Assembly: GCA_013036105.1 (NCBI GenBank)
Contig: JAAXCX010000002.1
Location: forward strand, 62,001-126,000
DNA from: Vulcanimicrobiota bacterium
GTDB taxonomy: Bacteria > Vulcanimicrobiota > Vulcanimicrobiia > Vulcanimicrobiales > Vulcanimicrobiaceae
Length of the DNA: 64,000 nt
Direction: 5' to 3'
In this document: one piece after another, positions 1 through 15,150 of the stretch
Layout of the letters: every line of letters starts with the position of its first letter
How positions within the stretch are numbered: position 1 is the stretch's first letter
The notes under the pieces: model-generated
Databases searched by the model: none
What the model was told of the DNA's origin: nothing
The model's input: only the letters and a program-made list of their open reading frames with translations
Translations under genes and position numbers: made by a program

Positions 1-983
1 CAAACCATCCCGAAGGTGCCGTATACGGAACAGCGATGCTCGCCTGCGTATACGCGCGAAGCGTGCAAAGACAGTTTCCGAATTCTGAGATCCACGTCCG
101 GCTCGTCGATGTGAAAGAGAGCTATTGCGCCAAGCTCGTAGAACGCACGCAGCGATTCCGCGACGACGGGATCGACGCCCAGGTCCTATGCGTTGATTGG
201 GTTGATGCGATTCAGCAAATCGTTCAAGAAATTAATACAGTTGCTCTCCGTTCCCTCAGCCTATGGTTCATCGATCCATATGGACCAACGGTGCTGACTT
301 TCGAGCGGCTCCAAGTATTGCTCAACGCCCCCGGCACAGAGCTAATCATCAACCTTGACGCGACCGGGTTAAGCCGGATGCGCGGGGTGGTGCAGAGCCC
401 GAAGGCAGCGCATAGTGCGCCCGTACGCGATCAGGCGGTGCTCCATCGCAGCCAGCTCGATGCCATTTACCGCAACACCTATTGGGAAGACCCTTCCGCA
501 CATGTCAAAGTGCGACCAGGCATGACATTGGAAGATCAGCTTGTCGAGGCATATTTGTTGAGCTTCAAGCGCTTTCGTGCACATGCATATCCGCTGCGAT
601 CAAGCGACAACCAGCGACGCTACCTCGTGCATTTGTCGCGAAGCCCATATGCGGAAAAGGCGTTTCAAGAAACCTATGAAGCATCGCGCAAGGTCGGTCT
701 CGCCAAGGGGAAAGCTCTGACCGATACCGAGTGCGCGCAACACACAAAGAATCTGTTCGATCTGTACCGCGGGGCAGAGGTCTCAATCGAGGACCTACAC
801 CTTGCGCAGGCGACGCCGCTCGACCGAGCGCAGCTCCGACGGGTTGCAAGCTATGCGGACGCGCACGAGTACGGCAGTTTTGCCGGAGACACGATCACCT
901 GGTACTCCGACGCCCCGGCAATTCCCGAAATGCCAGCCAGGAAGCGCCCGAATCAATCGCAGATGGATATGTTCGAGAGCTAA
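1..983 (+). CDS. tcmP: Three-Cys-motif partner protein (TcmP family), 5' end outside window
   Basis: The reading frame is already open at base 3, before the first ATG at 36, and the residues upstream of it (NHPEGAVYGTA) fit the family, so the true start lies outside the window. About 326 residues are visible. The WFIDPYGP motif followed by IINLDATGLSRMRG matches the central block of the TcmP family, which is named for its habit of sitting beside three-Cys-motif Gp37/Gp68 proteins; one lies 600 bases downstream here. The fold resembles a methyltransferase-like Rossmann domain, but I see no clear catalytic motif in the part present. Biochemical role unknown; the family occurs mostly in phages and mobile regions. 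The family call is fairly sure, the function is not. Confidence 0.72.
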   Translation, partial: NHPEGAVYGTAMLACVYARSVQRQFPNSEIHVRLVDVKESYCAKLVERTQRFRDDGIDAQVLCVDWVDAIQQIVQEINTVALRSLSLWFIDPYGPTVLTFERLQVLLNAPGTELIINLDATGLSRMRGVVQSPKAAHSAPVRDQAVLHRSQLDAIYRNTYWEDPSAHVKVRPGMTLEDQLVEAYLLSFKRFRAHAYPLRSSDNQRRYLVHLSRSPYAEKAFQETYEASRKVGLAKGKALTDTECAQHTKNLFDLYRGAEVSIEDLHLAQATPLDRAQLRRVASYADAHEYGSFAGDTITWYSDAPAIPEMPARKRPNQSQMDMFES

Positions 984-1540
984 GCGATCCGCCGGCGAAC
1001 CAACTCGTTCAACCCTTGAGTCACCGCGAGAGAACGGAATTCACGCTCTAAGCGAACCCAAAGACCAGAATTGATGACCTTGATGTTTCTCCCGACTTTG
1101 AGCCCGCGCTTGCGGCGCATGGCGCACGGCAGAAGAAAATCCGCCCAGACAAGCTGCCGTATCTTGGAGACAGACACGCCCTCCCTTTCGAGAAGGCCAA
1201 AGAAATCCGTTTGTCGTTCGTGGACGGCGGTCTTACGTTGATACTTTAACATTCGCAACGGATCTCGTAAAAGCACGCGCTCCGCGAACGCGTGCGCAAA
1301 GAAGTCGCCCAGAGCCGACTTCATCCTGTCCTCAACTGAACGCGGCACGGAAGACAACACACGCACGATCCGATCGGAATTCAGCTCTGAAACTCGAACC
1401 GATCCGAGCTTCCTCAGAAAACGCGCCACGTCGTTTGCATACGAGTGGGCCGTTCCTGGCGCGAGGCGCCCTTCCATGGTCCGACACCACGATTCATATA
1501 GGCGGCGATCTGGATGCTCCAGGACTCTTTTTCTTGGCAT
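980..1540 (-). CDS. Recombinase-like protein with only a core-binding (SAM-like) domain
   Basis: A 186-residue basic protein. Residues ~10-75 (LYESWCRTMEGRLAPGTAHSYANDVARFLRKLG and following) look like the N-terminal SAM-like core-binding domain of tyrosine recombinases. The R-H-R-Y catalytic half is missing, so it is either a truncated integrase or a stand-alone DNA-binding derivative. Its stop overlaps the end of the TcmP gene by 4 bases (tail-to-tail), and its start is 60 bases from the divergent DUF5131 gene, so it sits between the two partners of that pair. The ATG is followed at once by basic residues (PRKR). It could instead be an unrelated helical DNA-binding protein; I cannot exclude this without a profile search. 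Confidence 0.55.
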   Translation of the reverse strand: MPRKRVLEHPDRRLYESWCRTMEGRLAPGTAHSYANDVARFLRKLGSVRVSELNSDRIVRVLSSVPRSVEDRMKSALGDFFAHAFAERVLLRDPLRMLKYQRKTAVHERQTDFFGLLEREGVSVSKIRQLVWADFLLPCAMRRKRGLKVGRNIKVINSGLWVRLEREFRSLAVTQGLNELVRRRIA

Positions 1541-1599
1541 TAGAAAGTGTAAAATCTATACATGTATGACTTTTCCTGCTACACTTGTGTGAAATCGGT
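1541..1599. promoter_or_regulatory. Divergent promoter/operator region with palindrome
   Basis: These 59 bases separate the start codons of two divergent genes. They contain a perfect 10-base palindrome ATACATGTAT (1558-1567), an ACAC-TT-GTGT inverted repeat (1581-1590), and two direct copies of GTGT(A/G)AAATC (1547-1556 and 1587-1596). The stretch is much more AT-rich than its surroundings. This arrangement is what one expects of an operator controlling both genes, perhaps bound by the recombinase-like protein itself; that last step is inference. Confidence 0.45.
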
Positions 1600-2316
1600 A
1601 TGAGCGACTCCAGCAAGATCGAATGGACCGATGCCACCTGGAATCCCGTGACCGGCTGCACGCAGGTCTCGCCGGGCTGCGATAACTGCTACGCGATGCG
1701 GTTCGCCGAGCGATGGCGCGGCATAAAAGGCCATTATTTCCAGAACGGTTTCGACGTGGTACTGCGCGCCAAGATGCTCGACAAGCCCAACCAATGGCGC
1801 AAACCGCGCCTCATCTTTGTGAACTCCATGAGCGACCTTTTCCATCGCGATGTTCCCGACAAGTACATTGATCGTGTTTTCGAACGGATGGAGGCGACGG
1901 ACCGACACGTTTATCAATTATTGACAAAACGTCCAGAGCGAATGAAGCGCTATTTAGGAAAGCGCTATGGACAAGGCGCTTGTCCACCGCATATCTGGAT
2001 AGGAACCAGCGTGGAATCGAACGCTTATGCGTGGCGCGCCGAGACGCTAAGAAACATCAGGGCTGAAGTGCGCTTTCTTTCCGTGGAACCGATGCTCGGG
2101 CCCGTGGGCGGAGTCAAACTGGAGGGAATCGGCTGGGTCATTGCAGGCGGCGAATCGGGACCGGGTTTCCGGCCACTCCATGTTCAGTGGGTGAGGGATC
2201 TTCGCGACCGATGTGTCGCTGGGAACATCGCCTTCTTTTTTAAGCAGTGGCACAAAGGAAAGACCGGCCGCTTATTGGACGGCTGCACATGGGACGAAAT
2301 GCCACTGGTGGCGTGA
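1600..2316 (+). CDS. Phage Gp37/Gp68 family (DUF5131) three-Cys-motif protein
   Basis: 238 residues from the ATG at 1600; a TTG 15 bases earlier is in frame, but MSDSSKIEWTDATWNPVTGC is the classic beginning of this family. The signature Cys cluster (GC-TQVSPGC-DNC-YA, residues ~20-33) is intact, as are NSMSDLFHRDVP, the LLTKRPERM block and the GGESGPGFRP motif. The Cys arrangement suggests an iron-sulfur or radical-SAM-like protein, but no activity is established that I know of. Members are found in phages and genomic islands, commonly with a TcmP partner, which is present just upstream here. The interposed opposite-strand recombinase-like gene is unusual, because the pair is normally adjacent. 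Confidence 0.85.
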   Translation: MSDSSKIEWTDATWNPVTGCTQVSPGCDNCYAMRFAERWRGIKGHYFQNGFDVVLRAKMLDKPNQWRKPRLIFVNSMSDLFHRDVPDKYIDRVFERMEATDRHVYQLLTKRPERMKRYLGKRYGQGACPPHIWIGTSVESNAYAWRAETLRNIRAEVRFLSVEPMLGPVGGVKLEGIGWVIAGGESGPGFRPLHVQWVRDLRDRCVAGNIAFFFKQWHKGKTGRLLDGCTWDEMPLVA

Positions 2317-2566
2317 GCCAGTGCGCGGTCCACAGGACGCACACAACAAATATGGCTTCTCCATCGTTTCTCCATCGGTTCTCCACAGGCTACGTCTTGA
2401 TCGCGCAGTCGTTCTGTCCTACGGTTTCAACAGATAACTGAAATGACTATGTTGCCGCATCCGTCGTGGCACTGCCGACGCGCGACGCGAGTTTCTCTCA
2501 GGCAGCTCGGCGCGAACGAACGCGAATACCGCGTCGTTCGTCCGCGCCCTTCAGAGGAGATTATTC

Positions 2567-4345
2567 GTGAGCGCAGCTAGCATTTTGCAAGAATCGCCGG
2601 CGTTGAATGCGCAGTCCAGCAGACTCGCGCGTAAGGTCAGCGATCAGAAGAGAACCGGCGCACATTTTACACCGCCCGACCTCGCCGATTTTGTTGCGCA
2701 GCGGATTACAGCACATTTGACGTTCTCAAAAGAACAACTGGAAGTACTTGACCCATCTTGCGGAGATGGTGAGTTGCTACGTGCTTTTTGGGCTTCTATT
2801 CCCGCGCAGTATCAGGAACACGTTACTTTGCGGGGCATAGAGGACCATGAACCGTCTCTCAAGGCTGCCGAAGGCAGACTTGCTGGTCTCGGAGCTCGCT
2901 CTAAATTCATTCACGCCGATTTTATAACTACTACTCAACGGTTTCGAACACCACAGCTGTTCGCGAGCAACGGAGGTATACGCAATGTCGAAACTACGCT
3001 TCCGCAACCGCGGGTCATAATCGCAAATCCACCCTACGTTCGAACTCAGATTCTTGGAGCGGATCGAGCGCAAGATCTCGCACGCCAATTTGGCTTGTAC
3101 GGACGAGTTGATCTTTATCACGTTTTTCTCATAGCCATGGCAGAGGTATTGCAACCGGGCGGTCTCATGGGGGTGATAACTTCCAATCGCTTTCTGACGA
3201 CACGTGGCGGAGAGGCCCTCCGTCAAGAATTAGCAGCACGATTTGAGTTGCTCGAAATCATTGACTTGGGTGACACAAAAATGTTCACCGCGGCGGTATT
3301 ACCTGCGGTGATTATTGCCAAGAAACGCTCGGTTGCTCAGGTGCAGAAGTCTCCCCAGACAACTCGATTCATCCGAGTCTATGAACATCGCAAGGAGGAC
3401 TGTGCCCAAGAAAGTGTTGCAGCGTCGAGCATCTTAAAAACTGTCAATTTCGGGCAGGACGGGCAGTACACCGTCGACCAGCGGATCTTTAACGTCACTT
3501 CCGGGCAAATGACTATTGATACTTCGCCTCGAGATGCCTGGCGAATGGCTACAGCTAACGAAGCAGAGTGGATGAGTCGGATCGATCAATCAACCCGTTT
3601 TCGAGTCGCTGACCTCGCAAAAGTTCGCGTCGGTATAAAAACCACCGCTGACAGCGTTTTCATCAAACGCGATTGGGCGTTACTTGCGAAGACGAGCCGG
3701 CCGGAAAAAGCTATTCTTCGCCCGCTATTAACCCATCACGATGCAGCTCGGTGGACGTCTCTTACCTCAAGTGATAATTTGGCACAGATTGCCTATCCCC
3801 ACGAATCCGTTAATGGCAAGCGACAGACCATCAATCTCGAGCAGTATCCAAGAGCTAAGTCATACTTCGAATCGAATCGAAGAGTGCTTGAGAATCGGAC
3901 GTACGTAACAAGAAGCGGTCGAAAATGGTACGAAATCTGGGTCCCACAAGATCCGGCAGCTTGGGGAAATCCGAAAATCGTTTTCCCTGACATTAGCGTT
4001 GAGCCGCGATTCTTCTTCGATGGCACAGGAGCACTTGTGAATGGGGACTGCTATTGGATATCCCTGGATCCGGCGCACGTCGATATCCTACTTCTGATTC
4101 AAGGTGTGGCTAACTCAGCGCTTATGTTGAAATACCATGATCTTGCCTTCAACAACCGTCTATACTCAGGTCGACGCAGATTTATTAGCCAATACGTTGA
4201 GCGCTATCCCATACCTGATCCTACATCAAAGGGAGCGCGGGCTATCATAAAAATTGTAAAGCAGCTCAACAGACACCCCTCGGCTGATTTGGAGCAAAAA
4301 CTCAATAGAACGGTAGAGTTCGCTTTTGGGTTCCGCGCAGGCTAA
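2567..4345 (+). CDS. Type II N6-adenine DNA methyltransferase (Eco57I-like class)
   Basis: 592 residues starting at GTG, with GAGGAG seven bases upstream. SAM-binding motif I is DPSCGDG (residues 62-68) and catalytic motif IV is NPPY (154-157), the N6-adenine type. The N-terminal KRTGAHFTPPDLADF segment and a long C-terminal region that should hold the target-recognition domain match Eco57I/TaqI-type methylases. It converges on, and overlaps by 4 bases, an endonuclease-like gene, so it most likely protects the host DNA from that enzyme. The gene is clearly richer in A+T than the core chromosome to the right, which supports horizontal origin. The 250 bases upstream hold three TTCTCCA(T)C repeats (2357-2386) and a GC-rich hairpin next to the ribosome-binding site. 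Confidence 0.88.
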   Translation: MSAASILQESPALNAQSSRLARKVSDQKRTGAHFTPPDLADFVAQRITAHLTFSKEQLEVLDPSCGDGELLRAFWASIPAQYQEHVTLRGIEDHEPSLKAAEGRLAGLGARSKFIHADFITTTQRFRTPQLFASNGGIRNVETTLPQPRVIIANPPYVRTQILGADRAQDLARQFGLYGRVDLYHVFLIAMAEVLQPGGLMGVITSNRFLTTRGGEALRQELAARFELLEIIDLGDTKMFTAAVLPAVIIAKKRSVAQVQKSPQTTRFIRVYEHRKEDCAQESVAASSILKTVNFGQDGQYTVDQRIFNVTSGQMTIDTSPRDAWRMATANEAEWMSRIDQSTRFRVADLAKVRVGIKTTADSVFIKRDWALLAKTSRPEKAILRPLLTHHDAARWTSLTSSDNLAQIAYPHESVNGKRQTINLEQYPRAKSYFESNRRVLENRTYVTRSGRKWYEIWVPQDPAAWGNPKIVFPDISVEPRFFFDGTGALVNGDCYWISLDPAHVDILLLIQGVANSALMLKYHDLAFNNRLYSGRRRFISQYVERYPIPDPTSKGARAIIKIVKQLNRHPSADLEQKLNRTVEFAFGFRAG

Positions 4346-5400
4346 CTATCGAAGAAGTCCGCCGGTAACTGCATCTGCAATTTCTTGTTTAGTTCCCTGC
4401 CGCCGAATTGCCGAAAACGCGCGAAAAAATCTTGCCCCGTAACCAAATGAATGCTCGTAATGGATACGACTGCGCCGTCGGTCACGCCACCAACGATTAG
4501 GTAACGCACATCACAGTGCCTGATCTGGCGATCCCCCACGAACGGAATATCAAGTGCATCGACACTATTCGGACAGATCAATCCAAGGTCAATGGTGGGA
4601 GATGTTTGAAGTTTGATTTCCAAGAGCTGATTCTTAACGTCGGGGCAGCTTCCGTCATCTTCAAAATCTAGCTCGAGCACGGCACAGACAAGGCGATGCA
4701 AATCTCCGGCACGATTACGATCTTGTGTCGACCCGCGATCTACAAATGTTCGCCCAACGAGCCTTTTTAAAGGCTCAAACAAGGCTGCAATTGATAGTAG
4801 AGTATCAGACTTCGGATAGTCTACGGAACGCATCTGTGGCTGCCATGGCTCAGCTGATACGACCGGCGCCAAATTAGCTGTATCGACGGAACTAACCAGC
4901 TCGGCTTGTAATGTACCCGCCAAGAAACTAGCTTGATATTTTTGTGTCAAAGTACCCGTCGTATCCAGTTCCGTCAGCCGCTCACCTGTAGCCACTTTCA
5001 CCTTGTCTACAAGATCACTATTTGTAACATGAAGCAGCACGTAGCGCCGAGTGGGTTCTAGTTCCTCGTTCCAGATTTGGAGGTTCGTTGATTTTTGAGT
5101 GTAAACGTCGAACTGCTGACCCGGAAATCGTGGCTGCGCCTTGGTGAATGCTTTCGGAAGTGGGTACCCCAGCGCACCACAGATCGCGCTCTTTACAACC
5201 TTCGACCTTGTGCGCAACGGAAAGCCATGGAGATCGAGGTTTCGAAGTGACTCGTCAAGGACAGCCTCCAACTCAGGTGCCGGCAGCCAATAGGTTGTGT
5301 CCCCTATGGCGATTCGGTCGTAAATCGTCAGGCCGCTACGCGCGATACGCGAGACAATTTCCAGCCCGCGCGATAAGCTGGTCGACTCTGCCGACTGCAT
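4342..5400 (-). CDS. Type II restriction endonuclease, PD-(D/E)XK fold (predicted)
   Basis: 352 residues. A textbook PD-(D/E)XK nuclease motif is present: PD at 252-253 and EIK at 261-263 (PDVKNQLLEIKLQ), so D253, E261 and K263 are the predicted metal/catalytic residues. It lies tail-to-tail with the adenine methyltransferase, overlapping its stop by 4 bases, a common layout for type II restriction-modification pairs. The N-terminal ~200 residues have no domain I recognise and may carry DNA specificity and dimerisation. I cannot name the recognition sequence or an isoschizomer. Base composition is low in G+C like its partner. Confidence 0.78.
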   Translation of the reverse strand: MQSAESTSLSRGLEIVSRIARSGLTIYDRIAIGDTTYWLPAPELEAVLDESLRNLDLHGFPLRTRSKVVKSAICGALGYPLPKAFTKAQPRFPGQQFDVYTQKSTNLQIWNEELEPTRRYVLLHVTNSDLVDKVKVATGERLTELDTTGTLTQKYQASFLAGTLQAELVSSVDTANLAPVVSAEPWQPQMRSVDYPKSDTLLSIAALFEPLKRLVGRTFVDRGSTQDRNRAGDLHRLVCAVLELDFEDDGSCPDVKNQLLEIKLQTSPTIDLGLICPNSVDALDIPFVGDRQIRHCDVRYLIVGGVTDGAVVSITSIHLVTGQDFFARFRQFGGRELNKKLQMQLPADFFDS

Positions 5401-5462
5401 GCCACGTCCTGTTTGAGCACACGCCTGAATAACCTAGCGACGGCGCAGTAACGCTCGCGGCC

Positions 5463-6458
5463 TCATGGCGGATCTAACTTTGGCAAGCCGAGCTCCAGGC
5501 GCGTGTCCCCGCTGATGAATTTCTCAGCCCATTCATGGCCCATCTGAACGTCGAAAAGACGCAAGAGATCTTCGATCGCGCGAAGACGTCGGCCAAGTTG
5601 CTTGCGCTCCAGTGTGAATGCTCCGGCATGCACAAGTCGGTCGCGCTCAAACACAGCCTTCCTAAGCTGAACAATGATCGACGGAACAATACGCGCGCGA
5701 GAGTCCTTCGGGTAATAGCTTTCGAGAAGATTAACGATCGGGAGACTCTTGGGAGATTCGAGCATCTCGGTCAAGGTTGGATCGATGAACTTCAAGCACC
5801 GCTTCGTCCCAACTTCGGCCGCGGCGACGGCGATAACTAGGGCACTACGGGGGTTATCAAATTGCAGATGTTGAGCCTCCATCAGCAACTCGAACGCCAG
5901 TGGCTCAGCCGGCAGCGGCTCGTATTCCCCTTCTTCCGGCTCGATGATTGAGTCGAGATACTCAAACTGCCACTCTGTCTGTTCGATCGAGAAAGATCCA
6001 TACACTGTAAACCAAGTTCTCGCGTCCAGCGACCAGGAAAACGGCGCGAGATCCGTCTTCAGGACAAGCTGGGTTCCATGCGCATTACAGCGCCAACGCA
6101 AAGATTTCGCCAGGGTAAGCGCGCGGGCGCTCAGCTTCTCCTCGATAGCTCGGACAGCGTACGCCACTTTCGATGGGAACTCGTTGATGTCGACTGGCGC
6201 TGCTGCTGCTTGAGTCCCAGCCATTCTATTCGCCAAGAAGGGAACCGCGTATTCGATTAGCGCAGGCGGCCTTGACACGGCAGTTATTGCAACACAGGCT
6301 TGCTTAGGGACCAAGCTCCGTCCGTCGCGTGCCTGCAGAAACGCGATGGATACGTCATCGCCCACGCTGACGTTTAGATTTCCGCGATATTGAAGAAAAT
6401 GCGCCCGCGGAAACTCGAACTGCTTCTTAAGGAAAACTATCTGTTTTGCAGTTGCCAT
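5463..6458 (-). CDS. HEPN-like domain protein paired with a UvrD helicase
   Basis: 331 residues. The C-terminal third looks like an all-helical HEPN domain: an early helix ALVIAVAAAEVGTKRC (~residues 206-221) and, near the end, ERDRLVHAG with R272-x4-H277, the R-x4-6-H signature of HEPN ribonucleases. The N-terminal half, residues ~1-190, looks beta-rich and is not familiar; it could bind a ligand or sense a trigger. The gene lies 88 bases downstream of a UvrD-family helicase on the same strand, so they are probably co-transcribed. HEPN proteins in such islands commonly act in phage defence or as toxins; that role here is inference. The motif is short, so this could be a HEPN-fold protein without nuclease activity. 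Confidence 0.58.
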   Translation of the reverse strand: MATAKQIVFLKKQFEFPRAHFLQYRGNLNVSVGDDVSIAFLQARDGRSLVPKQACVAITAVSRPPALIEYAVPFLANRMAGTQAAAAPVDINEFPSKVAYAVRAIEEKLSARALTLAKSLRWRCNAHGTQLVLKTDLAPFSWSLDARTWFTVYGSFSIEQTEWQFEYLDSIIEPEEGEYEPLPAEPLAFELLMEAQHLQFDNPRSALVIAVAAAEVGTKRCLKFIDPTLTEMLESPKSLPIVNLLESYYPKDSRARIVPSIIVQLRKAVFERDRLVHAGAFTLERKQLGRRLRAIEDLLRLFDVQMGHEWAEKFISGDTRLELGLPKLDPP

Positions 6459-6546
6459 GGCTTGTCACTAAAACACTTCTAGGGCGCCTATCGCGATGAA
6501 CCGTCAGGTCCTTGAGGTCTGATCTGCGCTAGCGCTCGCGCTCGCT

Positions 6547-8490
6547 CTAGCTGAAATTTGAATCTGTCCACGAGTTTCCTGACTTCGTCTGATGACCCAC
6601 GCCAATCTCACGGAGAAAGCGGCTTGGCAACGTTCGACCCTGTTGTGATAGTCTCACTCCGATCTGCGGAGCCATTGGCGCACTAATTCGCGCGGGCGAC
6701 GATAGCACAAGAATTTCCCTGGGTCGCGTGACCGCCACATAAAAGAGCCGGCGCTGTTCCCTTAGCGTCCTCTCCTGATCATTGAGCGGAAGGTCTGTAT
6801 CTACGTTCGGAATCAGTGAGTCTACGATGCTCGCGATGATCGCAACCTTACTCGTTAGGCCTTTGGACGCATGCAAGCTCATAACCCTGACGAAGTCGGG
6901 CTCCTCCGGTACTTCGGGTTGCGATATATATTCGCTTAGCGTGCTGAGGATATCCGCGCAAGTTGCCGTTTCTTCGATTTCGCTCCCCTGTAGTATCTCA
7001 CGAAGCGACTCAGCCCACTGGGTACCGGCGGGGAATAGCTGATCTAGGAGGGCCGGACCTGTCACTTCGGCCAACTGGCCAAGCCGCTGTCGCAAGAGCC
7101 GAAATCGAGCGAGTGTTTGCGCAAAACCCGCAGCATTAAGATCACCTCGACTCATGCGATCCAGGGTGCCAAATGGCGATTCCCCGGTCTGCTGACAAAG
7201 GTCTCGCAAACGACAATATTGTTTGAAACGCCAGTCTTGGCTTCCAAAACCAAGCCAAAAGCGAAGAGCCACCCGATCCTCGACATTGCACAGGAGCGTG
7301 AGGAGCGCGTATGCCTCCTGCGCCCCATTTTCTTCTAGAGCTTCTTCGTGAAAAAAACTATGCGCGTCAACACCAAGATTGCGCAACTCATTTCGGAGTT
7401 GGTAGGCGATACGACGACGCGGACATAGTATCAGGAAGTCTTTGGCCTGATATCCACGATCGGCGATCAAATAAGCAACGTAGGCCGCAAGCCCTTGCAC
7501 TTCTGCATCCAGGTTTGTCCACTGAACTACATGGATCTCGCCGCGCGGATTGGCCGGCATTGGAGACATCCGAACATAGGACGCTTCACCGAGATGATTA
7601 TTCGTAATGACGCTGTTAGCTACGGCGACTATGTCTTGACCGCAACGACGACACTCGGATAGCGATTTGTCAACTGTATCGCCGTGACGTTGCAAGAAGT
7701 CCGCTATCCCTTCCGGATTTGCATACTTGAAGGCGTAAATGGATTGGTCCGCGTCTCCAACGATCGCCAAAACGGAGTTCTCCGCCAAGCGGTCGATAAT
7801 TGTCTGCTCCGCCTTGTTGAGATCCTGATATTCGTCGACGATAATTCGGTCGAAGGCGTGATGTTCGTCAGCGGTAGGATTGTCGTCCAAGTATCGAAGC
7901 GCTTCTGGAATGAGTTCGCCGATCAACATTGCGCGGTGGAAGCGCAGCCACGATAACAACGCCTCCTGAAATTGAAGATCCACCTCGTCCCTCTGCGCAA
8001 ATGCTTCGTCTTGCTGCGTTCGAGCATAGGCCGCTTCGTACTCGCGGATGCGTTTTATACGGCGCCTCTTGTTACCGAAAACCTCCTGATTGTCCAAATC
8101 AATCAAGAGCGGCGCGTATTCGAAGCCGAGAATGCCGTTTTGAGTCACCGGCAGCAAGGGGCGCGGTGTTCGGTCGTGAGCTTCGAGCGCAGATGCCCGC
8201 AAGAGCGTACGGAAGCAAAATGCGTGGAGCGTGCCTGCCCAAATTTCGTCGCACCCGGGCACACCGATTTCAGAAAGCTCGTTGCGCAGATCTCGCGCGG
8301 CCGTTCGAGTGAACGTAACCGCTAGGATCCGCCGAGGGTCTACGTTTTGCTCTAACAGCCGCATGACGTAACGCCTGATCGCGAAGGTTTTTCCCGTGCC
8401 TGGTCCAGCTAGTACGCGTAACCGCCTGTCATCGCTCGCAGCAATTTCAAGCGCGGCCCCCTGCAAATTATCGTTCCACGGCACGCCCAC
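6547..8490 (-). CDS. UvrD/Rep-family superfamily I DNA helicase
   Basis: 647 residues. The motifs run in order: Walker A GPGTGKT (29-35), Walker B IIVDEYQDLNKAEQ, motif III GDADQSIYAF, motif V VMSLHASKGLTSK, and motif VI RRLFYVAVTRPREILV. This predicts a 3'-to-5' ATP-dependent DNA helicase. It lacks the C-terminal nuclease domain of AddA/RecB and is shorter than canonical UvrD/PcrA (~720). GTG start at 8490; a second GTG at 8484 is better spaced from the GGAGG upstream and may be the real start. It is followed by the HEPN-like gene. The context resembles helicase-effector defence pairs such as Gabija, but no GajA-type nuclease is present. Confidence 0.9.
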   Translation of the reverse strand: MGVPWNDNLQGAALEIAASDDRRLRVLAGPGTGKTFAIRRYVMRLLEQNVDPRRILAVTFTRTAARDLRNELSEIGVPGCDEIWAGTLHAFCFRTLLRASALEAHDRTPRPLLPVTQNGILGFEYAPLLIDLDNQEVFGNKRRRIKRIREYEAAYARTQQDEAFAQRDEVDLQFQEALLSWLRFHRAMLIGELIPEALRYLDDNPTADEHHAFDRIIVDEYQDLNKAEQTIIDRLAENSVLAIVGDADQSIYAFKYANPEGIADFLQRHGDTVDKSLSECRRCGQDIVAVANSVITNNHLGEASYVRMSPMPANPRGEIHVVQWTNLDAEVQGLAAYVAYLIADRGYQAKDFLILCPRRRIAYQLRNELRNLGVDAHSFFHEEALEENGAQEAYALLTLLCNVEDRVALRFWLGFGSQDWRFKQYCRLRDLCQQTGESPFGTLDRMSRGDLNAAGFAQTLARFRLLRQRLGQLAEVTGPALLDQLFPAGTQWAESLREILQGSEIEETATCADILSTLSEYISQPEVPEEPDFVRVMSLHASKGLTSKVAIIASIVDSLIPNVDTDLPLNDQERTLREQRRLFYVAVTRPREILVLSSPARISAPMAPQIGVRLSQQGRTLPSRFLREIGVGHQTKSGNSWTDSNFS

Positions 8491-8661
8491 AACCCTCCGT
8501 CGCCCGATTTATCGCTGGGCAGCGCGACCCTATTTCGACCCCAAGCCTTCTTCAGCACCATACTATTGTTGCTCCCGCAAAGTGCCACCCAGCTGTCACT
8601 CTGAGAGTCTATCATCGCACTCGAGTAAGGCATCCACCTAATTTATAAGGATAGAAACCTC

Positions 8662-8934
8662 ATGGCCAAGACCTCAAAGCCCGCCGGACACACGAGCCAA
8701 AAAGTCGATCACATTGCTTCCAACCTGCTTCGCACCAGCCGAGATACTGAGGTACGAAGCGTGGCTGGCGCAGCCTTATCGGACACGCGGACCTCGCCGA
8801 AAGGCCACAAACCGATTGCCCACACCCGCGACCAGGTCGCGGCCATGGCCGGCTCTTTAATGAACACCGGAAACAAAAACGAGCGCAGGGTCGCGGCATC
8901 GGTTCTCGCTGATCATAAAACCAAAAAGCGCTGA
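8662..8934 (+). CDS. Small basic two-repeat protein of unknown function
   Basis: 90 residues, rich in Lys, Arg, Ser and Thr. It starts at ATG after AAGGATAGAAACCTC. The sequence is an internal duplication: SNLLRTSRDTEVRSVAGAAL (residues ~21-40) aligns with GSLMNTGNKNERRVAASVL (~64-82), and each is followed by S/A-D-T/H and a basic tail (KGHK, KTKKR). Each unit predicts a short helical segment. No family is recognised. It stands between the divergent helicase gene and the first winged-helix gene, 48 bases upstream of the latter, so it may be co-transcribed with it. Possibly a small nucleic-acid-binding protein. Confidence 0.6.
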   Translation: MAKTSKPAGHTSQKVDHIASNLLRTSRDTEVRSVAGAALSDTRTSPKGHKPIAHTRDQVAAMAGSLMNTGNKNERRVAASVLADHKTKKR

Positions 8935-8982
8935 AAGGGACCGGCGAAAGCCGAAAACGCAACTGACGTTATCGATTGAAAC

Positions 8983-9804
8983 ATGCATCGTATTTCTACT
9001 CGCTTCGAGGAATTCAAACGCTACAACCCGGCGTCCAGGACGTTGGCGCATCGCAAGGCCCAGACACCGCTTGACGTGCGCTACAAGCCGCCGCATCGGA
9101 AACGAAGCCGTCCGTTTAAGACCGTGCGTACGCCTATTCCGTGGATCTTCCGACGCGGCGGGTGCGATCGCGTTCTCATATGCCTAGCCATCAACGGACC
9201 AATGACCGTACGAGAAATCGGCCGCGCGATAAAATCTGACTCGCACAAGACCTGGGACATGGTGGAGCGGCTGCGCAAATCAGGCCTCGTCGTTAAACGC
9301 GACTATGCCGGCGGCCGCAAATATGTCGCCCTCAACCGGCAACTGCCGATCTACCGTCCCCTCCTGCACCTCTTGCTCGCACTAGACAAACATTGGCCGG
9401 GGCAACGCATCAACCGCGCAAGCGCGCGCTGGCACATGCCGTTCGATCGCAATCTCACTGCAGAGCGCACGGATCACATTTTTCAATCGCCGGTGCGCTC
9501 GCGCATCCTGCTGTTCATCTGCGCCGTTGGCGAAACCGACATGTCGACGATTTATAAGTTGCTGGGACTGGGAAGCGTCTCGACGATGCTGATCGTCAAC
9601 CACTGGGAAAAACAGGGAATCGTATGCACGCGCTGGTTCAAAAAACATCGGCTAGTGAAGCTGGATCCGAAATTCATCGTAGCCAAAAAACTCAAGGCGT
9701 TGATGCGCGAAATCGTCGTCCACTCGGATGAGTACCGGATGCTCCGCAAAGTCGCGCGCGCCCGGTTGGGAAAACTTATAAAAGCAGCAAACGCTACTCG
9801 TTGA
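8983..9804 (+). CDS. Dual winged-helix DNA-binding protein (paralogue A)
   Basis: 273 residues, strongly basic, with two apparent winged helix-turn-helix modules. The first (~60-113: DRVLICLAINGPMTVREIGRAI, helix, then RLRKSGLVVKRDYAGGRKYVALN) ends in a typical beta wing. The second (~165-226: SRILLFICAVGETDMSTIYKLL, then HWEKQGIVCTRW and HRLVKLDPKF) has the same layout. The N-terminal 50 residues are basic and probably disordered. The gene at 10509 encodes a shorter homologue with the same two-module plan. MarR/ArsR-like reading heads suggest transcription control or binding of the island's DNA; no ligand site or catalytic domain is visible. Confidence 0.68.
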   Translation: MHRISTRFEEFKRYNPASRTLAHRKAQTPLDVRYKPPHRKRSRPFKTVRTPIPWIFRRGGCDRVLICLAINGPMTVREIGRAIKSDSHKTWDMVERLRKSGLVVKRDYAGGRKYVALNRQLPIYRPLLHLLLALDKHWPGQRINRASARWHMPFDRNLTAERTDHIFQSPVRSRILLFICAVGETDMSTIYKLLGLGSVSTMLIVNHWEKQGIVCTRWFKKHRLVKLDPKFIVAKKLKALMREIVVHSDEYRMLRKVARARLGKLIKAANATR

Positions 9805-9976
9805 AGATCGCCGCAATCGCTCCGGGAATGTTAGCGGGAATCGCTTTGCCGCCATTCTCGCCACGCAACTCTAAAACAAACTCGCCTCTCTTCGATCCGG
9901 CGCCGTCATGCAACGCGATCTCCTGTGCGCCTGGGACCGACGTTAGGCTTGCGACAAGAATTCCACGTTGCCACAC
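9794..9976 (-). CDS. Small hypothetical protein, 60 residues
   Basis: GTG start with GGAGAG a few bases upstream (rc of 9977-9990). The product (MWQRGILVASLTSVPG then QEIALHDGAG, EFVLELRGENGG and AIPANIPGAIAAIF) looks like a compact beta-rich domain, and its composition is more protein-like than the other frames. It lies 33 bases behind the 132-residue gene on the same strand, and its 3' end overlaps the end of the winged-helix gene by 11 bases. Function unknown; it could be the remaining C-terminal part of a longer protein. Confidence 0.45.
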   Translation of the reverse strand: MWQRGILVASLTSVPGAQEIALHDGAGSKRGEFVLELRGENGGKAIPANIPGAIAAIFNE

Positions 9977-10009
9977 GTTCTCTCCGCAGAGGTCGGCGTT
10001 TTCTTTCCA

Positions 10010-10408
10010 CTACTCGAAGGGCAAGAACAGTTTTTTTACGCGGGCCTCATGGAACTCATAGTAGTGATCCGGCTCACCACCGCGCCTCCTCCACGCCTCG
10101 GCTAACACCGCGTCAAATACACGCCGAAGTGCGATAAACTCCGCGACCAACGGACTGCGTGACGTGTCGGCGCTCAGCGTGGCGTGAAGTCCTTCGCCGC
10201 AAGACTGCCATCCGGCATCGTCGGTCGCAACGCAACCGCACGCGAACCTGATCGTCTGCAACGGTTGAAGAGCGCCGGACTTCGAACCGCGTGCAAAGCG
10301 AATTTCATCTCGCTCAAACTCCAGCCCACGCAAAACCGCCAAAACAGAAGCTGCGCGCCAGGCTGGCTGTTGCTCCGGATCCTCAGGGTCCCAGTTATTA
10401 TCTTCCAT
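10010..10408 (-). CDS. Hypothetical acidic protein, 132 residues
   Basis: No family recognised. The sequence opens with an acidic stretch (MEDNNWDPEDPEQQPAW), then LRGLEFERDEIRFARGSKSGALQPLQTIRFACGCVATDD with three closely spaced Cys-containing positions (a CGC pair and a later SCGEG), and ends in a helical, aromatic tail (HYYEFHEARVKKLFLPFE). It is transcribed towards a 60-residue gene with which it probably forms a two-gene unit. The unit lies on the opposite strand between the two dual-winged-helix paralogues, which may control it. The alternate + strand frames across this stretch look like random translations. Confidence 0.52.
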   Translation of the reverse strand: MEDNNWDPEDPEQQPAWRAASVLAVLRGLEFERDEIRFARGSKSGALQPLQTIRFACGCVATDDAGWQSCGEGLHATLSADTSRSPLVAEFIALRRVFDAVLAEAWRRRGGEPDHYYEFHEARVKKLFLPFE

Positions 10409-10508
10409 ATACTAGGGTATCCGGCAAGGGGCTCCAGAGCACCCTTCGCGTGTCCGCCCGCCCTCAACCATTCCCAGGCCGGACTGATCCTAGGCCGAAA
10501 ATCGTCGA

Positions 10509-11243
10509 ATGCCTAGGCGGAAGGTGGACGTTCCTCCTCTGATCTACGGTTCGGGACCGCTAACATTAATCGTCATCGCCTTGTCGCTACACGGCAACTT
10601 GACGACACGAGAGTTAAGTTCTGTTACTACCCTACACAAGACTCGCGTCAACCGACTGCTCAACCAACTCAAACGACAACGGCTTGCCATCGATTTCCCG
10701 TGGGGCGGCTACAGGACGCTCACGGGTCCGCCGGGGCGTAGAATAAAGAATCCCGCGCGCGACAAGATGTGGGCGCTCGATCCGCACCACCCGCTTTTCT
10801 TGCGCATCGGGGACCTGGCGCGCTGCCTGGCCCGCCAGTTCCCGACGCCAAACGACCGGCTCAAGAAAAAACCTCGAAAGTACAATGGTCCCCGCTTGGC
10901 CAAATATCAAATTGCCGGCGAGGAGTGGAAGATCTTCGGTGACGCCCCGTTGTCAAGAATTTTGCTTCTACTTGCTTGGGCCAACAATGTCCCGATAGAA
11001 AAGATGTCCACTCTGCTCGGTCGAGGCCGCGGAACAAGAAATTCGATCTCGGTTCTGGAGAGATACGGAATCGTCACCGCGCGCTGGCACGGTCACGAGC
11101 ACCAAGTCTCTTTGAACCCAGCCTTCTGCGCGTACTGGTCGCTGCGCGAGATCAACCGGAAGATCGATCTCGAGAGCGGCCGGGAATACAAATCTCTGGC
11201 GCAAGCCCGCTGGAAGGCACTGCTCCGTAAGCAGATGCTGTAG
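10509..11243 (+). CDS. Dual winged-helix DNA-binding protein (paralogue B)
   Basis: 244 residues with the same architecture as the product at 8983. Module 1 is TLIVIALSLHGNLTTRELSSV followed by a recognition helix HKTRVNRLLNQLKR and a wing ending in KMWALDP. Module 2 is SRILLLLAWANNVPIEKMSTLL followed by VLERYGIVTARW and HQVSLNPAF. Identity with paralogue A is low but the spacing of hydrophobic blocks is conserved (SRILL, G-IV-RW, LNP/LDP F). The pair therefore arose by an old duplication. A non-coding repeat stretch lies directly downstream and could be a target site. The Met at 10509 lacks a strong ribosome-binding site. Confidence 0.66.
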   Translation: MPRRKVDVPPLIYGSGPLTLIVIALSLHGNLTTRELSSVTTLHKTRVNRLLNQLKRQRLAIDFPWGGYRTLTGPPGRRIKNPARDKMWALDPHHPLFLRIGDLARCLARQFPTPNDRLKKKPRKYNGPRLAKYQIAGEEWKIFGDAPLSRILLLLAWANNVPIEKMSTLLGRGRGTRNSISVLERYGIVTARWHGHEHQVSLNPAFCAYWSLREINRKIDLESGREYKSLAQARWKALLRKQML

Positions 11244-11252
11244 CTCAAAAAA

Positions 11253-11543
11253 ACGCAGGTTTGCCGAGCATGGGCCCGACGAAAACAAAAGAACGCTGCG
11301 ATCGGTAGGCCGTCAGGCCGCGCGAAAATACGAATAAACCGTGCAGCTGCTTCGAACTCAAAAATGACGGCCAAAATCGACAGCTGCGGCGAACGAAACA
11401 GGCCGGCTTTCTAGGCTCCGTGCCATCTCAAAGCGAAGGCACGAAGCCCCAAAATCCCTCACAAAAACCCGAGTTTACCACGCAGGTGCTTCGAACCAAA
11501 GTGCGATCGGTCGAATAAACCACGCAGGTCGCGCGAACTCAAA
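11253..11543. repeat. Non-coding stretch with degenerate ~30-base repeats
   Basis: The ~320 bases after the winged-helix gene hold no credible gene. Three related units are visible: 11332-11362 (GAATAAACC...TTCGAACTCAAA), 11472-11500 (TTTACCACGCAGGTGCTTCGAACCAAA region) and 11513-11543 (GAATAAACCACGCAGGT...CGAACTCAAA). A partial ACGCAGGT copy lies at 11253-11260. The first and third agree at 24 of 31 positions. Spacing is irregular (~140 and ~41 bases), which argues against CRISPR. They may be binding sites for the neighbouring winged-helix proteins or end sequences of the island. Confidence 0.5.
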
Positions 11544-11545
11544 GG

Positions 11546-11573
11546 TTGACAAAATCTGAGAATAATTTATAAC
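11546..11573 (+). promoter_or_regulatory. Sigma70-type promoter reading into the comEC remnant
   Basis: TTGACA at 11546-11551 and TATAAC at 11568-11573 are separated by 16 bases, close to the housekeeping consensus and rare in this GC-rich window. It lies exactly at the island/chromosome junction and points towards the comEC fragment and the lipoprotein gene that overlaps it by one base. Confidence 0.5.
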
Positions 11574-11883
11574 GCGCACCCCGGACGTGCTCAAGGTCGG
11601 ACACCACGGATCCGCCTACAGCTCGACGCCTGCGTTCATCAGCGCCGTGCACCCGGCGTATGCCCTCATCTCAGTCGGGGGCCACAACCTTTTCGGTCAC
11701 CCCGCGCTTTCAACGCTCGAAACGCTGCAGCGTTTCGGCGCACGCATTTTCCGTACAGACGAAGATGGCGCAGTAACGGTCACAACCGACGGCCACAAAA
11801 CTCGTGTCATGGCGCCAGTCCGGGTCAAGCCTGCCGGCGAAAAACAGGCCGCGCGGCGCCCGCCCTCAAAAGACGAAGAATAA
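11566..11883 (+). pseudogene. comEC: C-terminal remnant of ComEC/Rec2 (metallo-beta-lactamase end)
   Basis: The frame is open from 11566 and recognisable homology begins around 11581 with PDVLKVGHHGSAYSST. KVGHHGS, the ISVG turn, NLFGHP and the final DG-AVTVTTDG strand are the end of the ComEC metallo-beta-lactamase domain. Only ~100 residues of the usual 700-800 remain; the competence membrane domain and most of the nuclease-like domain are absent. A GTG at 11587 could start translation of a 98-residue fragment, but it would lack most metal ligands. The island has therefore interrupted or replaced comEC; its 5' part may lie beyond the left window edge. Confidence 0.72.
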
Positions 11884-12380
11884 TGACGAAACCATTGCGT
11901 TCTCTTGGCGCGCTAGCACTAGCGAGCTGCCTTGCTCTCGCGGCCTGTAACAATGGGTCGAGCACGCCGGCGGTCATCGCGCAAGTATCCAATATATCCG
12001 GCGACTACAGCGGCACGTTTCACGACGGCATCGCCGGCACAGGCGCAGCCACGACGACGCTCGCGCAGCATGGTTCGAACGCGGGCGGCGCCATTGCGGC
12101 GGCCACGCCCGGTGGCGGAATTGCGGCGCAAATCTCGCTGACCGTCGCGTCGTCGAATGCGCTGAGCGGCGCGATCGTTATCAACTACCCGAGCGGAACG
12201 ACCTGCACGTTTTCGACGACCGGCACATACAGTAACACGGGAACTGTAGCGAGCATCACCGGCTCGTTCACGCCGGTCACGGGATGTTCGGGCGACTCGG
12301 GTACGTACACACTCAACCAGGAATGCACGGATACGATCACAAGCGAGGTGCGAACGCTCAGTTTCCCGCCGCAGTGCTGA
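11883..12380 (+). CDS. Secreted lipoprotein, beta-rich
   Basis: 165 residues with a signal peptide ending in the lipobox LAAC (Cys22 predicted to be lipidated). The mature part is Gly, Ser and Thr rich with alternating strands (NISGDYSGTFHDG, TTTLAQHG, GGAIAAATPGG, AQISLTVASS) and four Cys residues near the end that could pair. This pattern resembles small beta-sandwich or lipocalin-like envelope lipoproteins. The start codon overlaps the stop of the comEC remnant (TAATG), so it was probably translated with comEC and is now served by the promoter at 11546. It ends one base from the stop of the opposite-strand regulator. Function unknown. Confidence 0.7.
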   Translation: MTKPLRSLGALALASCLALAACNNGSSTPAVIAQVSNISGDYSGTFHDGIAGTGAATTTLAQHGSNAGGAIAAATPGGGIAAQISLTVASSNALSGAIVINYPSGTTCTFSTTGTYSNTGTVASITGSFTPVTGCSGDSGTYTLNQECTDTITSEVRTLSFPPQC

Positions 12381-12381
12381 C

Positions 12382-15150
12382 TTAGGGAGCGAGCACCTTA
12401 AGCGCTTCTTCCTCGCTCCATTCGCCTCCGCGTTTGAGCAAGGTTTTGAATTCGCCATCGGCGAGGCGCGCTTCGATGGCGAGCGACGCATTTTTTAACG
12501 CCAGGCCATCATCCGGTTGCACTTTCCACTCGAGCTGCTCCAAACACTTGGTCGCGTAGCCAAAAAGCATCGCGGCTCCCTGCGGATCGCGTGCTGCGTG
12601 CAGCGGCGCGCAGTAGGCCAATGCCATCGCGCGGGCGAGCGGATGCTGCGCCCGCACCGCAAGCGTTAGCGCCTCGCGCGCATGCGCGCCCGCTTCTTCA
12701 GGGTCGCCGAGCGCCAAAGTCCACGCCGCCAGCTGAATCTCAAGCGACATCTGCGCGTTGCGGCCGGCGCATTTCAGCCCTTCCAGCGCGAGCGATTTGG
12801 CGCGTTCAAACGATCCTGACGCGGCTTCGCTAGACGCCCACCATTCGAGGACGATGCACGCTTCCTCGGGATCGCGTGCTGCGCGCGCCGCTTCCAGTGC
12901 TTCCGAAAACAGCGCGCGCGCGTCTTCAATATCTGCAGCTGGCAACGAGTAGGCACAGCGGCGCAGCACAGCGATAAGCACGCGCGGTTCTCCGAGAAGC
13001 CGGGCGCGGCGGATCGCCTCCGCCGCCGGCGCACGAGCTTCTTCAAAGCGTTGCGCGCGCGCGAGCTGCTGAGCAACTTGCGAAAGCGCGCGAATCAAAC
13101 CGCGTTCGTCCGCGGTCTGCTCCAAAAGCGCAACCGCGCGCTGTGCGGACGCCAGCGCTTCATGGTTTTCTCCCAGATTGTTGTGCATCATCGAAGCGAC
13201 GTATTCCATTCTGCCGGCGGTCTGGGCGGGCAGACCGGACACCGTCCGCGCCCGCTCGCACCATTGCAGCCCTTCGGCCAGCAGATCCAAGCGCATGAAG
13301 ATCGGACCGCAATCAGCCGCCATTTGAGCGCCGGCGCGACGATCGCCGGCGCCTTGAAGCGCTCGCTCCAGCGCCGCGCGAAAGTTATCGAGATCGGGCG
13401 ACAGCCGTTCGAGCCATTCCTCCGGAAGACGCGAATCGAACTCGTGGTACGCTTGCGACGCCAGCGCGGCGAAGTATGCGCCGTGCTGCGAAGCAGCGCT
13501 CGTGGCGTCGTTGTCGCCGGCCGCCTTTTCTGCTGCGAATTCACGGATCGTTTCGAGCAGCCGGTAACGCGTCGCGAACGCAATGGTTACCGTCAGGAGC
13601 GATTTATTCGCCAGTGAGGTCAGCGCGTCGAGTACCTGATACTCGTCGCATACACCGCCGTAGGCGCAAACGGCGGCCGCCGCCGGAAGAGAAAAACTGC
13701 CGCGAAAAGCGGCCAGCCTGCGAAAGAGCGATTGCTCGCCGGCATCAAGCAGATCGTAACTCCACTCGATCGCCGCCGCCAACGTTCGCTGCCGCGGGAG
13801 CGCGTCGCGCGAGCCACCAGTAAGCAAACGAAAGCGTTCGCGCAAACGCTCCAGAATTTCCCCGGGGCCAAGCGCGCTCGTCCGTGCCGCGGCAAGCTCT
13901 ATTGCGAGCGGAATACCGTCCAAGCGTTCGCAAATCTCCGCTACCGTTTGCGCGTACAGATTCACATCGAAATCGCCGGTGACGTTCGCGGCGCGCTGCG
14001 CGAAGAGTTCGGCCGCGGCATCGGGATGCAAAGAGCCTAGACGATAGACTTGCTCGCCTTCGAGATGCAGCACTTCACGGCTCGTGATCAACAACGTCAC
14101 GCCCGGACACGAGGCCCGTATCTGCGCGGCCATCTTAGAAACGTGCGCAACCACTTGTTCGCAATTGTCGAGCACGATCAATACGTCGCGCGGACGCAGA
14201 TGCTCGATAAGGCGCTCGAGGTCGCTATCGTGCTCTCCGCCGCCGGCGCTAAGCGCGGCTAGAGCGGTTGCCGCGACCAAGGCCCCATCTGCGATCGGAG
14301 CGAGATCGACGAACCACGCACCGTCCGCGCGACGGTCGATGGCATCGGCGGCGCACCGGAGCGCAACGCTGGTTTTTCCGACACCGCCCGGGCCGGTCAA
14401 CGTGACCAGATGCGATTGCTCAAGCGCGGCGCGCAGTTCGCCAAGCTCGCGGTCGCGGCCGACGAGCCGCGGCAGATTGGCCGGAATGTTATTGGGAACG
14501 CGCGAGCTTCGCGGCCGGAGGTGCGGATCGAGCGACCCGAGCGCTACGGCCAGATCCTGCGCGAGGCCGCCGAGCATCTGCATTTCGTCGGCGTCGTACT
14601 CGTCGGCCGAGTCCACCGTAACAAAACCTATAAGATCGCCGGCCGCCGTCATCGGGAATGCCCAGATTCCGCGCGCGGCCGAGTGAAGCGACGGCAGATT
14701 AGCCGGCGTTCCAGTGGAGCGCAGGCGCACCGCCAGCGGATCATCGAGCGGCACGTCCTCGAGTGAAGCATCGAACGACGACGCCTCGGCGCGAAATATC
14801 TCGCGCCGAACGTACACTCCACACGCTCGCGCCTCCAAATGCTGCCCAACCGCTTCGATGACCCGCCGCAGCAGCTGGCCGGAATCGCTAAACGACGTCA
14901 GCTCCCGACGAAACTTGGCGAGCGCGGCCAACGCCTGCCGCTTCTTCTTAGAGAAGGCCGACTCGATCGCTTGGTCGACCCGCTGATGCACGGGACGAAA
15001 GGCGAGTGCCGCGATGATGACGATGGAAATTTCAACCGCCGTTGACGCGGCGCGCGAGCGTTCGGAAATGAAACGCTCCGCACCCCACTCCGTCAGCGCA
15101 AATGCGAGGACGATTCCGGTCGTGGCCAACGTGTAGGCGTAGGCACGCAT
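12382..15150 (-). CDS. Membrane-anchored GAF-STAND ATPase with TPR-like repeats
   Basis: 922 residues. Two N-terminal hydrophobic segments (~7-22, 38-51) are followed by a GAF-like domain (~85-205), then a STAND/NB-ARC ATPase with Walker A GPGGVGKT (253-260), Walker B DVLIVLDNCEQ and the GxP motif DGIPLAIELAA. A C-terminal helical array of TPR-like repeats runs from ~590 to the end. The ATPase part is the one found in LuxR- and AfsR-like regulators, but no helix-turn-helix or other output domain is present, so it probably signals by oligomerisation or protein contact. The N-terminus looks like the tail of a larger sensor. It converges with the lipoprotein gene at 1 base distance. Confidence 0.8.
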   Translation of the reverse strand: MRAYAYTLATTGIVLAFALTEWGAERFISERSRAASTAVEISIVIIAALAFRPVHQRVDQAIESAFSKKKRQALAALAKFRRELTSFSDSGQLLRRVIEAVGQHLEARACGVYVRREIFRAEASSFDASLEDVPLDDPLAVRLRSTGTPANLPSLHSAARGIWAFPMTAAGDLIGFVTVDSADEYDADEMQMLGGLAQDLAVALGSLDPHLRPRSSRVPNNIPANLPRLVGRDRELGELRAALEQSHLVTLTGPGGVGKTSVALRCAADAIDRRADGAWFVDLAPIADGALVAATALAALSAGGGEHDSDLERLIEHLRPRDVLIVLDNCEQVVAHVSKMAAQIRASCPGVTLLITSREVLHLEGEQVYRLGSLHPDAAAELFAQRAANVTGDFDVNLYAQTVAEICERLDGIPLAIELAAARTSALGPGEILERLRERFRLLTGGSRDALPRQRTLAAAIEWSYDLLDAGEQSLFRRLAAFRGSFSLPAAAAVCAYGGVCDEYQVLDALTSLANKSLLTVTIAFATRYRLLETIREFAAEKAAGDNDATSAASQHGAYFAALASQAYHEFDSRLPEEWLERLSPDLDNFRAALERALQGAGDRRAGAQMAADCGPIFMRLDLLAEGLQWCERARTVSGLPAQTAGRMEYVASMMHNNLGENHEALASAQRAVALLEQTADERGLIRALSQVAQQLARAQRFEEARAPAAEAIRRARLLGEPRVLIAVLRRCAYSLPAADIEDARALFSEALEAARAARDPEEACIVLEWWASSEAASGSFERAKSLALEGLKCAGRNAQMSLEIQLAAWTLALGDPEEAGAHAREALTLAVRAQHPLARAMALAYCAPLHAARDPQGAAMLFGYATKCLEQLEWKVQPDDGLALKNASLAIEARLADGEFKTLLKRGGEWSEEEALKVLAP

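Follow-up and report, generated by a model that had tools for sequence, protein, structure and literature searches.

The window analysed here is a stretch of 64,000 nucleotides from a Vulcanimicrobiota (Eremiobacterota) bacterium. It corresponds to positions 62001-126000 of C2, a contig of 212,117 bases in a 2.34-Mb bin of 29 contigs (95% complete, 4.2% contaminated). Among named records of the genome collection, the nearest relatives of its comEC come from MAGs labelled Candidatus Eremiobacterota. The stretch raises the question of what has happened to comEC, the gene of the DNA-uptake channel: does an island of foreign DNA join the chromosome inside this gene, and do mobile elements enter comEC at preferred positions in related genomes? 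Positions without a contig name refer to the window, and C3 is a second contig of the same bin.

A junction inside comEC

The homology to comEC begins at a 9-bp core, CGGACGTGC, at positions 11582-11590 on the forward strand. The identical nine bases are present at C2:37787-37795, and the core is thus common to both ends of the intervening DNA. The 102-aa translation of 11575-11880 matches the ComEC_Rec2 model TIGR00361 (1.7e-13, model positions 602-663 of 663), and no Pfam match could be found for it at a threshold of 0.001. The 3' remnant on the forward strand, which runs from LKVGHHGS to the stop codon (11582-11883), was also aligned by tblastn to residues 742-810 of the ComEC of a relative. 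It comprises the final ~80 conserved codons of the gene and its tail, and the surviving ORF encodes 98 aa (11587-11883).

A 5' partner piece of comEC was found on the same contig, at C2:37429-37795, 24 kb left of the first base of the window. Its bases C2:37435-37793 align to the comEC copy on C3 (80.5% over 359 bases) and end where the piece in the window starts; the latter shows 76.4% identity to the same copy over 237 bases. The left piece corresponds to comEC residues ~621-742 and the right piece to residues ~742-820, with the insertion point between ...HADV and LKVGHHGS... of ComEC. When the two pieces are fused at the core, a single open frame is obtained, ...SEGIDLHADV-LKVGHHGSAYSS..., which stops at position 11883. 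By chance, a 9-mer was shared in 2 of 100,000 random pairs.

A 36-kb block of foreign DNA really does lie inside comEC. The original prediction of an island-chromosome junction within this gene is borne out by the profile match, the partner piece and the frame restored on joining. Its statement that only the last ~100 codons are left holds at the junction, where the 98-aa ORF remains, but not for the contig, which also carries the partner piece. This piece, itself cut again, lies to the left of the window, where it had proposed to look. Similarly, the predicted insertion in comEC stands, but the single island does not, as the second cut beside a serine recombinase gene points to more than one insertion.

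The 35.8-kb element, its ends and its cargo

The element in comEC spans 35,786 bases (C2:37796-73581), of which the right-hand 11.6 kb forms positions 1-11581 of the window, and both of its ends were located and read. Its GC content is 0.558 and that of the sequence right of the core 0.621, which agrees with the compositional change that had been predicted at the junction; the value for C2:1-37428 is 0.552. The right end sequence (11566-11581, reverse strand) is an inverted relative of the left end: of the 16 bases beside the core, 12 match in inverted orientation, a level reached by 7 of 100,000 random pairs. The promoter-like sequence that had been noticed at the end of the repeat region is visible by eye as TTGACA/TATAAC at 11546-11573, but a promoter scan found none, and the stretch overlaps the element end sequence, of which an inverted relative lies at the opposite end. 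The repeat region itself was confirmed: the window has three copies of CGAATAAACCACGCAGGT with at most 3 mismatches, against an expectation of 0.09. These arm-like repeats, at 11331-11348, 11470-11487 and 11512-11529 on the forward strand, are joined by two left-end copies just inside the far end (C2:37849 and C2:37890). All five, three at the right end and two at the left, point in one direction. Arm sites of tyrosine integrases have a comparable layout.

Two winged-helix proteins are encoded beside the junction on the forward strand: protein 1 at 8983-9804 (MarR_2, 6.5e-08) and its distant paralogue, protein 2, at 10509-11243 (23% identity over 243 aa), for which there was no Pfam match. A homologous pair lies beside a comEC fragment in G013, which belongs to another genus, and beside a comEC 5' piece in G110, and such pairs also occur at a distance from comEC in G006 and G100. 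A structure search with protein 1 returned generic DNA-binding folds only (top PDB match ScpB, TMq 0.29) and so gave no evidence that it is a recombinase. A 186-aa protein (980-1540, reverse strand) is weakly similar to tyrosine integrases over their N-terminal part (Phage_int_M 0.0063 and Phage_int_SAM_1 0.027, both below the cut-off), and the catalytic part of such an enzyme is not seen in it. We infer that a tyrosine-type integrase made the junction, although the element is not classed as a tyrosine-integrase member because no complete integrase with catalytic residues was found among the subset of island ORFs scanned. An element of ~36 kb would have entered by conservative recombination at the 9-bp core in the codons for ...HADV|LKVGHHGS.

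Judged by profile matches, the cargo is defence-like. It comprises a type II DNA methyltransferase (2567-4345, forward strand; PDLC03226, 7.1e-191) paired with a type II restriction enzyme (4342-5400, reverse strand; PDLC03565, 2.4e-125), a UvrD/GajB-like helicase (6547-8490, reverse strand; GajB, 8.4e-52), TcmP (36-983, forward strand; TIGR04474, 6.9e-16) and a DUF5131 protein (1585-2316, forward strand; DUF5131, 5.9e-93). Further left in the island, a caspase and a RelA/SpoT protein are encoded, and a DDE transposase gene lies ~4 kb from the left end (DDE_Tnp_1, 6.9e-10). A subtilase gene adjoining a secretin gene was also observed within the island (C2:45944-48997).

The codons entered by this element, LKVGHHG, are referred to as site 3. 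In these codons, C2 (both ends), G111, G113 and G076 show breaks at GAC-GT. The sequences outside the G111 and G113 breaks are alike, a deletion begins at the site in G076, and G006 has an 8-bp tandem duplication there. Two further candidates were discarded as exact breaks: in G099 the second fragment starts ~20 bases upstream of the site, and in G013 the edge is ambiguous and only near the site.

A second break beside a large serine recombinase gene

The left comEC piece begins at C2:37429-37435, in the HPHGDHAGG codons (site 2), and the gene of a large serine recombinase (504 aa) starts 92 bases from the break at C2:37429. The protein has Resolvase (3e-18), Recombinase (1.2e-06) and Zn_ribbon_recom (1.2e-05) domains. 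At a threshold of 1e-20, 16 recombinase matches were found in 14 of 99 family genomes, and comEC is present in 3 of these 16 loci, which reach ~1.5 kb per side at most. Four matches have at least 45% identity (the enzyme itself and those of G006, G058 and G095), three of which adjoin comEC; the genes in G006 and G058 are located 93 bp and 33 bp, respectively, from their comEC breaks. Searches of viral contigs gave no relative of either the recombinase or ComEC.

At site 2, 17 3'-fragments (13 genomes) and 6 5'-fragments (5 genomes) were read, from 15 genomes together, and the GA dinucleotide was retained in 17/17 and 6/6 of these, all of which had been preselected for one end near residue 620. 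The bases left of GA diverge from comEC in some 3'-fragments (G076 and G092), and those right of GA diverge in the 5'-fragments of G002 and G006. Because the flanks depart from comEC on either side, GA is what all site 2 fragments share. The outer halves are inverted relatives, GTGTGAGCAGGA in G004 as against TCCTGCTCACAC in G002, the latter a genome of the same genus as the window. In G002 and G006 the frame ends after H-P-H-G-E-P, so that the channel part remains and the nuclease domain is missing. A second element, one that encodes a large serine recombinase, would part the left comEC piece from the rest of the gene, with the GA in the Asp codon of HPHGDH as its attachment core.

Displaced and exchanged 3' ends

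In several relatives, e.g. G024, G076, G092 and G113, at least one 3'-fragment starting at GA lies downstream of a long comEC. The comparison of G111 with G113 showed a step at the core, with 227/235 bases (96.6%) in agreement before it and 389/555 (70.1%) after it. Moreover, a displaced 3' copy lies ~12 kb downstream in G111. Because this displaced copy agrees with G113 at 448/547 bases, neither copy is the untouched original. The alignments indicate that the 3' end of comEC in G111 has been exchanged at the core. The corresponding test gave no decisive signal for G092/G094, G024 or G076, and a step was seen only in G111/G113. Elements that bring their own gene 3' end are known for some tRNA and protein genes. 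An element carrying its own comEC 3' end would yield the pattern seen in G111, and the exchanged 3' ends may have arrived on elements in this way.

Rows of displaced 3' fragments were observed downstream of comEC in L100 (G111:C386:29001-44514) and L102 (G113:C4:599001-619000), resembling a record of successive insertions. In L029 (G006:C5:268001-286000), two comEC 3' fragments lie 5 kb apart, each with its own DoxX-like and cupin genes; this is a small tandem duplication of the region downstream of comEC. The comEC of G005 was dropped as a broken gene, as it is split merely by contig ends.

A casposon in the comEC copy of C3

The comEC copy on C3 is split at residue ~291, in the TAGLHLG codons (site 1), by an insert of 15,367 bases (C3:115388-130754; L027 and L025). 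The insert has inverted ends and a 14-15-bp duplication of GTGCTCGTCACCGC(G), read at both ends. It encodes Cas1 (PF01867, 1.6e-38) and a PolB-like protein (DNA_pol_B_2 4.8e-4, below the curated cut-off; PHROG DNA polymerase 7.2e-07), together with a methyltransferase and an Mrr-type nuclease. For the HNH nuclease of casposon families 2 and 3, the single candidate scanned (L025:4645-5166) gave no Pfam match at 0.05. By these signs, the insert appears to be a casposon. The same end sequence is found at the identical comEC base in G001 (L204).

The state of comEC in the bin

Searches with TIGR00361, PF03772, PF13567 and the ComEC of a relative detected no intact comEC in the bin, only the C2 pieces and the split copy on C3, which was thereby ruled out as an intact gene. 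A search of the bin with the remnant in the window likewise gave the remnant itself and the comEC on C3. The suggested check for an intact copy elsewhere in the genome was thus answered as far as the bin reaches. The chromosomal backbone of the window (15203-64000) is colinear with C3 at 82-88% and with the comEC-downstream genes of genus mates; the full colinear stretches are C2:77,203-158,652 and C3:132,394-210,757 (82-88% identity), and their divergence is about that between other species of the genus. The genes alaS and pnp are present only on C2 and gyrA and leuS only on C3, each once. Because each of these marker genes is on one contig only, neither contig is simply redundant. In its simplest reading, the bin looks mixed, a mosaic of two species; a true 80-kb duplication would be less likely given the ~15% divergence.

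Between comEC and the DoxX-like gene of C2 there are a small lipoprotein-like gene (11883-12380, forward strand) and a gene for a 922-aa ATPase-like regulator (12382-15150, reverse strand). Both are also found in G005 and in one G006 copy and are absent from C3.

The original prediction also held that DNA uptake should be disabled. This is not supported: the bin seems to be a mixture, codons 1 to ~620 of the gene are not on the contig and, according to passages of one study, almost half of ComEC proteins lack the nuclease domain (PMC8579336), which is the domain cut here, so that cells whose ComEC ends before this domain, as in G002 and G006, may still take up DNA. DNA uptake may have been lost or altered.

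Alternative explanations

The insertions and their positions, the adjacent serine recombinase and the casposon features were observed directly, and several explanations can be weighed against them. One is that the junction in the window is an artefact of assembly or binning, a mis-join of an island contig with the chromosome. The 4.2% contamination of the bin and its mixed appearance, with colinear ~80-kb stretches of C2 and C3 at 82-88% identity, would be in keeping with this. However, a mis-join is very improbable, as the comEC pieces on C2 have a common core and make one frame across a distance of 35.8 kb, and as breaks at these comEC codons recur in other genomes; the same winged-helix pair next to a comEC 3' fragment in G013 also speaks against it. 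A less remote but still unlikely source of the element is a transposon without site specificity, which would have arrived by chance, duplicated 9 bp of its target and have imperfect inverted ends of ~16 bp. Besides the inverted ends, the 9-bp direct repeat and the DDE transposase gene inside the island, the 8-bp tandem duplication at site 3 in G006 looks more like the scar of a transposon than the work of an integrase. On the other hand, C2, G111, G113 and G076 all have a break in the same codons, the five same-direction repeats are spread over both ends, and neither end is abutted by a transposase gene.

The recurrence of comEC breaks could also reflect neutral decay, in which comEC is dispensable in small genomes and takes any insertion, the common positions being a matter of coincidence or ascertainment. 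The frameshifts and stops in some copies (e.g. G006) point this way, as do the preselection of the fragments read and the many transposons that struck comEC of P. salmonis at non-identical positions, according to passages of PMC12955456. Yet in 15 genomes, which belong to several genera, the break at site 2 falls at a single dinucleotide, the recombinase gene adjoins it in three, and many relatives keep long open comEC frames, and we consider such decay improbable. The counts refer to fragments chosen for ends near the sites and are not a share of all comEC breaks, and G004 also breaks at residue ~386, off all three.

The most probable explanation, which we hold with good confidence, is that comEC is a favoured landing site, entered by the 36-kb element at the 9-bp core, broken a second time by a serine recombinase at the GA of HPHGDH and recurrently hit across the family. 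As a landing gene, it would receive serine-recombinase elements at HPHGDH, elements of the window type at LKVGHHG and the casposon at the TAGLHLG codons; some insertions leave comEC broken, and in other genomes a long comEC precedes displaced 3' fragments. A further-reaching proposal is offered tentatively, as its chances appear slightly short of even: comEC of Vulcanimicrobiota might be a dedicated landing gene for multiple elements, in which three unrelated systems (a large serine recombinase, a casposon, and a system of tyrosine or unknown type that goes with the winged-helix pair) each recognise a different ComEC motif, with some elements carrying a replacement 3' end and swapping the nuclease domain and others breaking the channel, in a contest over DNA uptake.

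Mobile elements in competence genes are a main argument that transformation purges parasitic DNA, in what is known as intragenomic conflict. Here, one uptake gene is struck at fixed nucleotides by more than one enzyme class in many genera of a little-studied lineage, and long, broken and exchanged versions occur side by side. Their comparison could tell if elements gain by breaking ComEC or by replacing its nuclease domain. In addition, the gene offers a natural series of GA-core serine-recombinase sites and a casposon in a protein-coding gene.

Comparison with known systems

In one open-access library, no publication was found on Eremiobacterota and natural transformation, on a casposon and comEC, or on casposons in Eremiobacter; judged from the listing in that library, PMC4260502 was relevant for comEC with a serine recombinase, and no paper on comEC with a serine integrase looked relevant. 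According to passages of PMC4260502, the integration site of Phi1207.3 (Tn1207.3) and Phi10394.4 in S. pyogenes is one particular GA within comEC, and Phi1207.3 carries serine recombinases; serine-recombinase insertion at GA in comEC has therefore already been published for streptococci (PMC4260502). The break at C2:37429 and its relatives are like these phages in that a large element, a serine recombinase and a GA in the comEC coding sequence are involved (PMC4260502). However, the hosts belong to a distant phylum, the C2 recombinase is only 20-27% identical to phage integrases of the collection among the best 12 matches, and the likeness is at the level of the GA dinucleotide in comEC. The junction in the window differs further, lying at another comEC site where a serine recombinase is not known.

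Records of Ca. Heliusvirales gut phages also contain a 3' half of ComEC at the record end, starting at the motif of site 1. It was noticed in L217:3272-4891 (PV036424.1) and L218:3935-5518 (PV036442.1), annotated as hypothetical protein, and the frame in PV036424.1 runs upstream into Q-T-G-V-H-I-A-I-I-G, the site 1 motif. The passage of the paper in which the order is named makes no mention of this ComEC half. These are phages of Bacillota, and the likeness noted is that of the ComEC motif.

With casposons, as described in passages of PMC4046053 (Krupovic et al. 2014), the C3 insert shares a solo Cas1, a PolB-like gene, inverted ends and a target duplication close in length to the reported median (15). 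In contrast, the gene targets named there are tRNA and aEF-2 genes, entered at their 3' ends and left intact, whereas the C3 insert splits the middle of comEC (PMC4046053).

Competence genes have been hit by mobile DNA in other bacteria. Passages of several papers report comM, comYC, comFA and comK struck by mobile elements (PMC4774983, PMC11472951), comEC interrupted by transposons in P. salmonis (PMC12955456) and an enrichment of serine-recombinase targets in competence genes (PMC10083194). What the comM, comYC, comFA, comK and P. salmonis comEC cases have in common with the present one is that mobile DNA has entered transformation genes, which is interpreted as intragenomic conflict (PMC4774983, PMC11472951, PMC12955456). 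The present case differs from these in that different kinds of element have entered a single gene at three fixed motifs, with displaced or exchanged 3' ends. As far as our searches go, the new features are that elements of three kinds occupy three conserved comEC motifs, the casposon, and the displaced or exchanged 3' ends of the gene.
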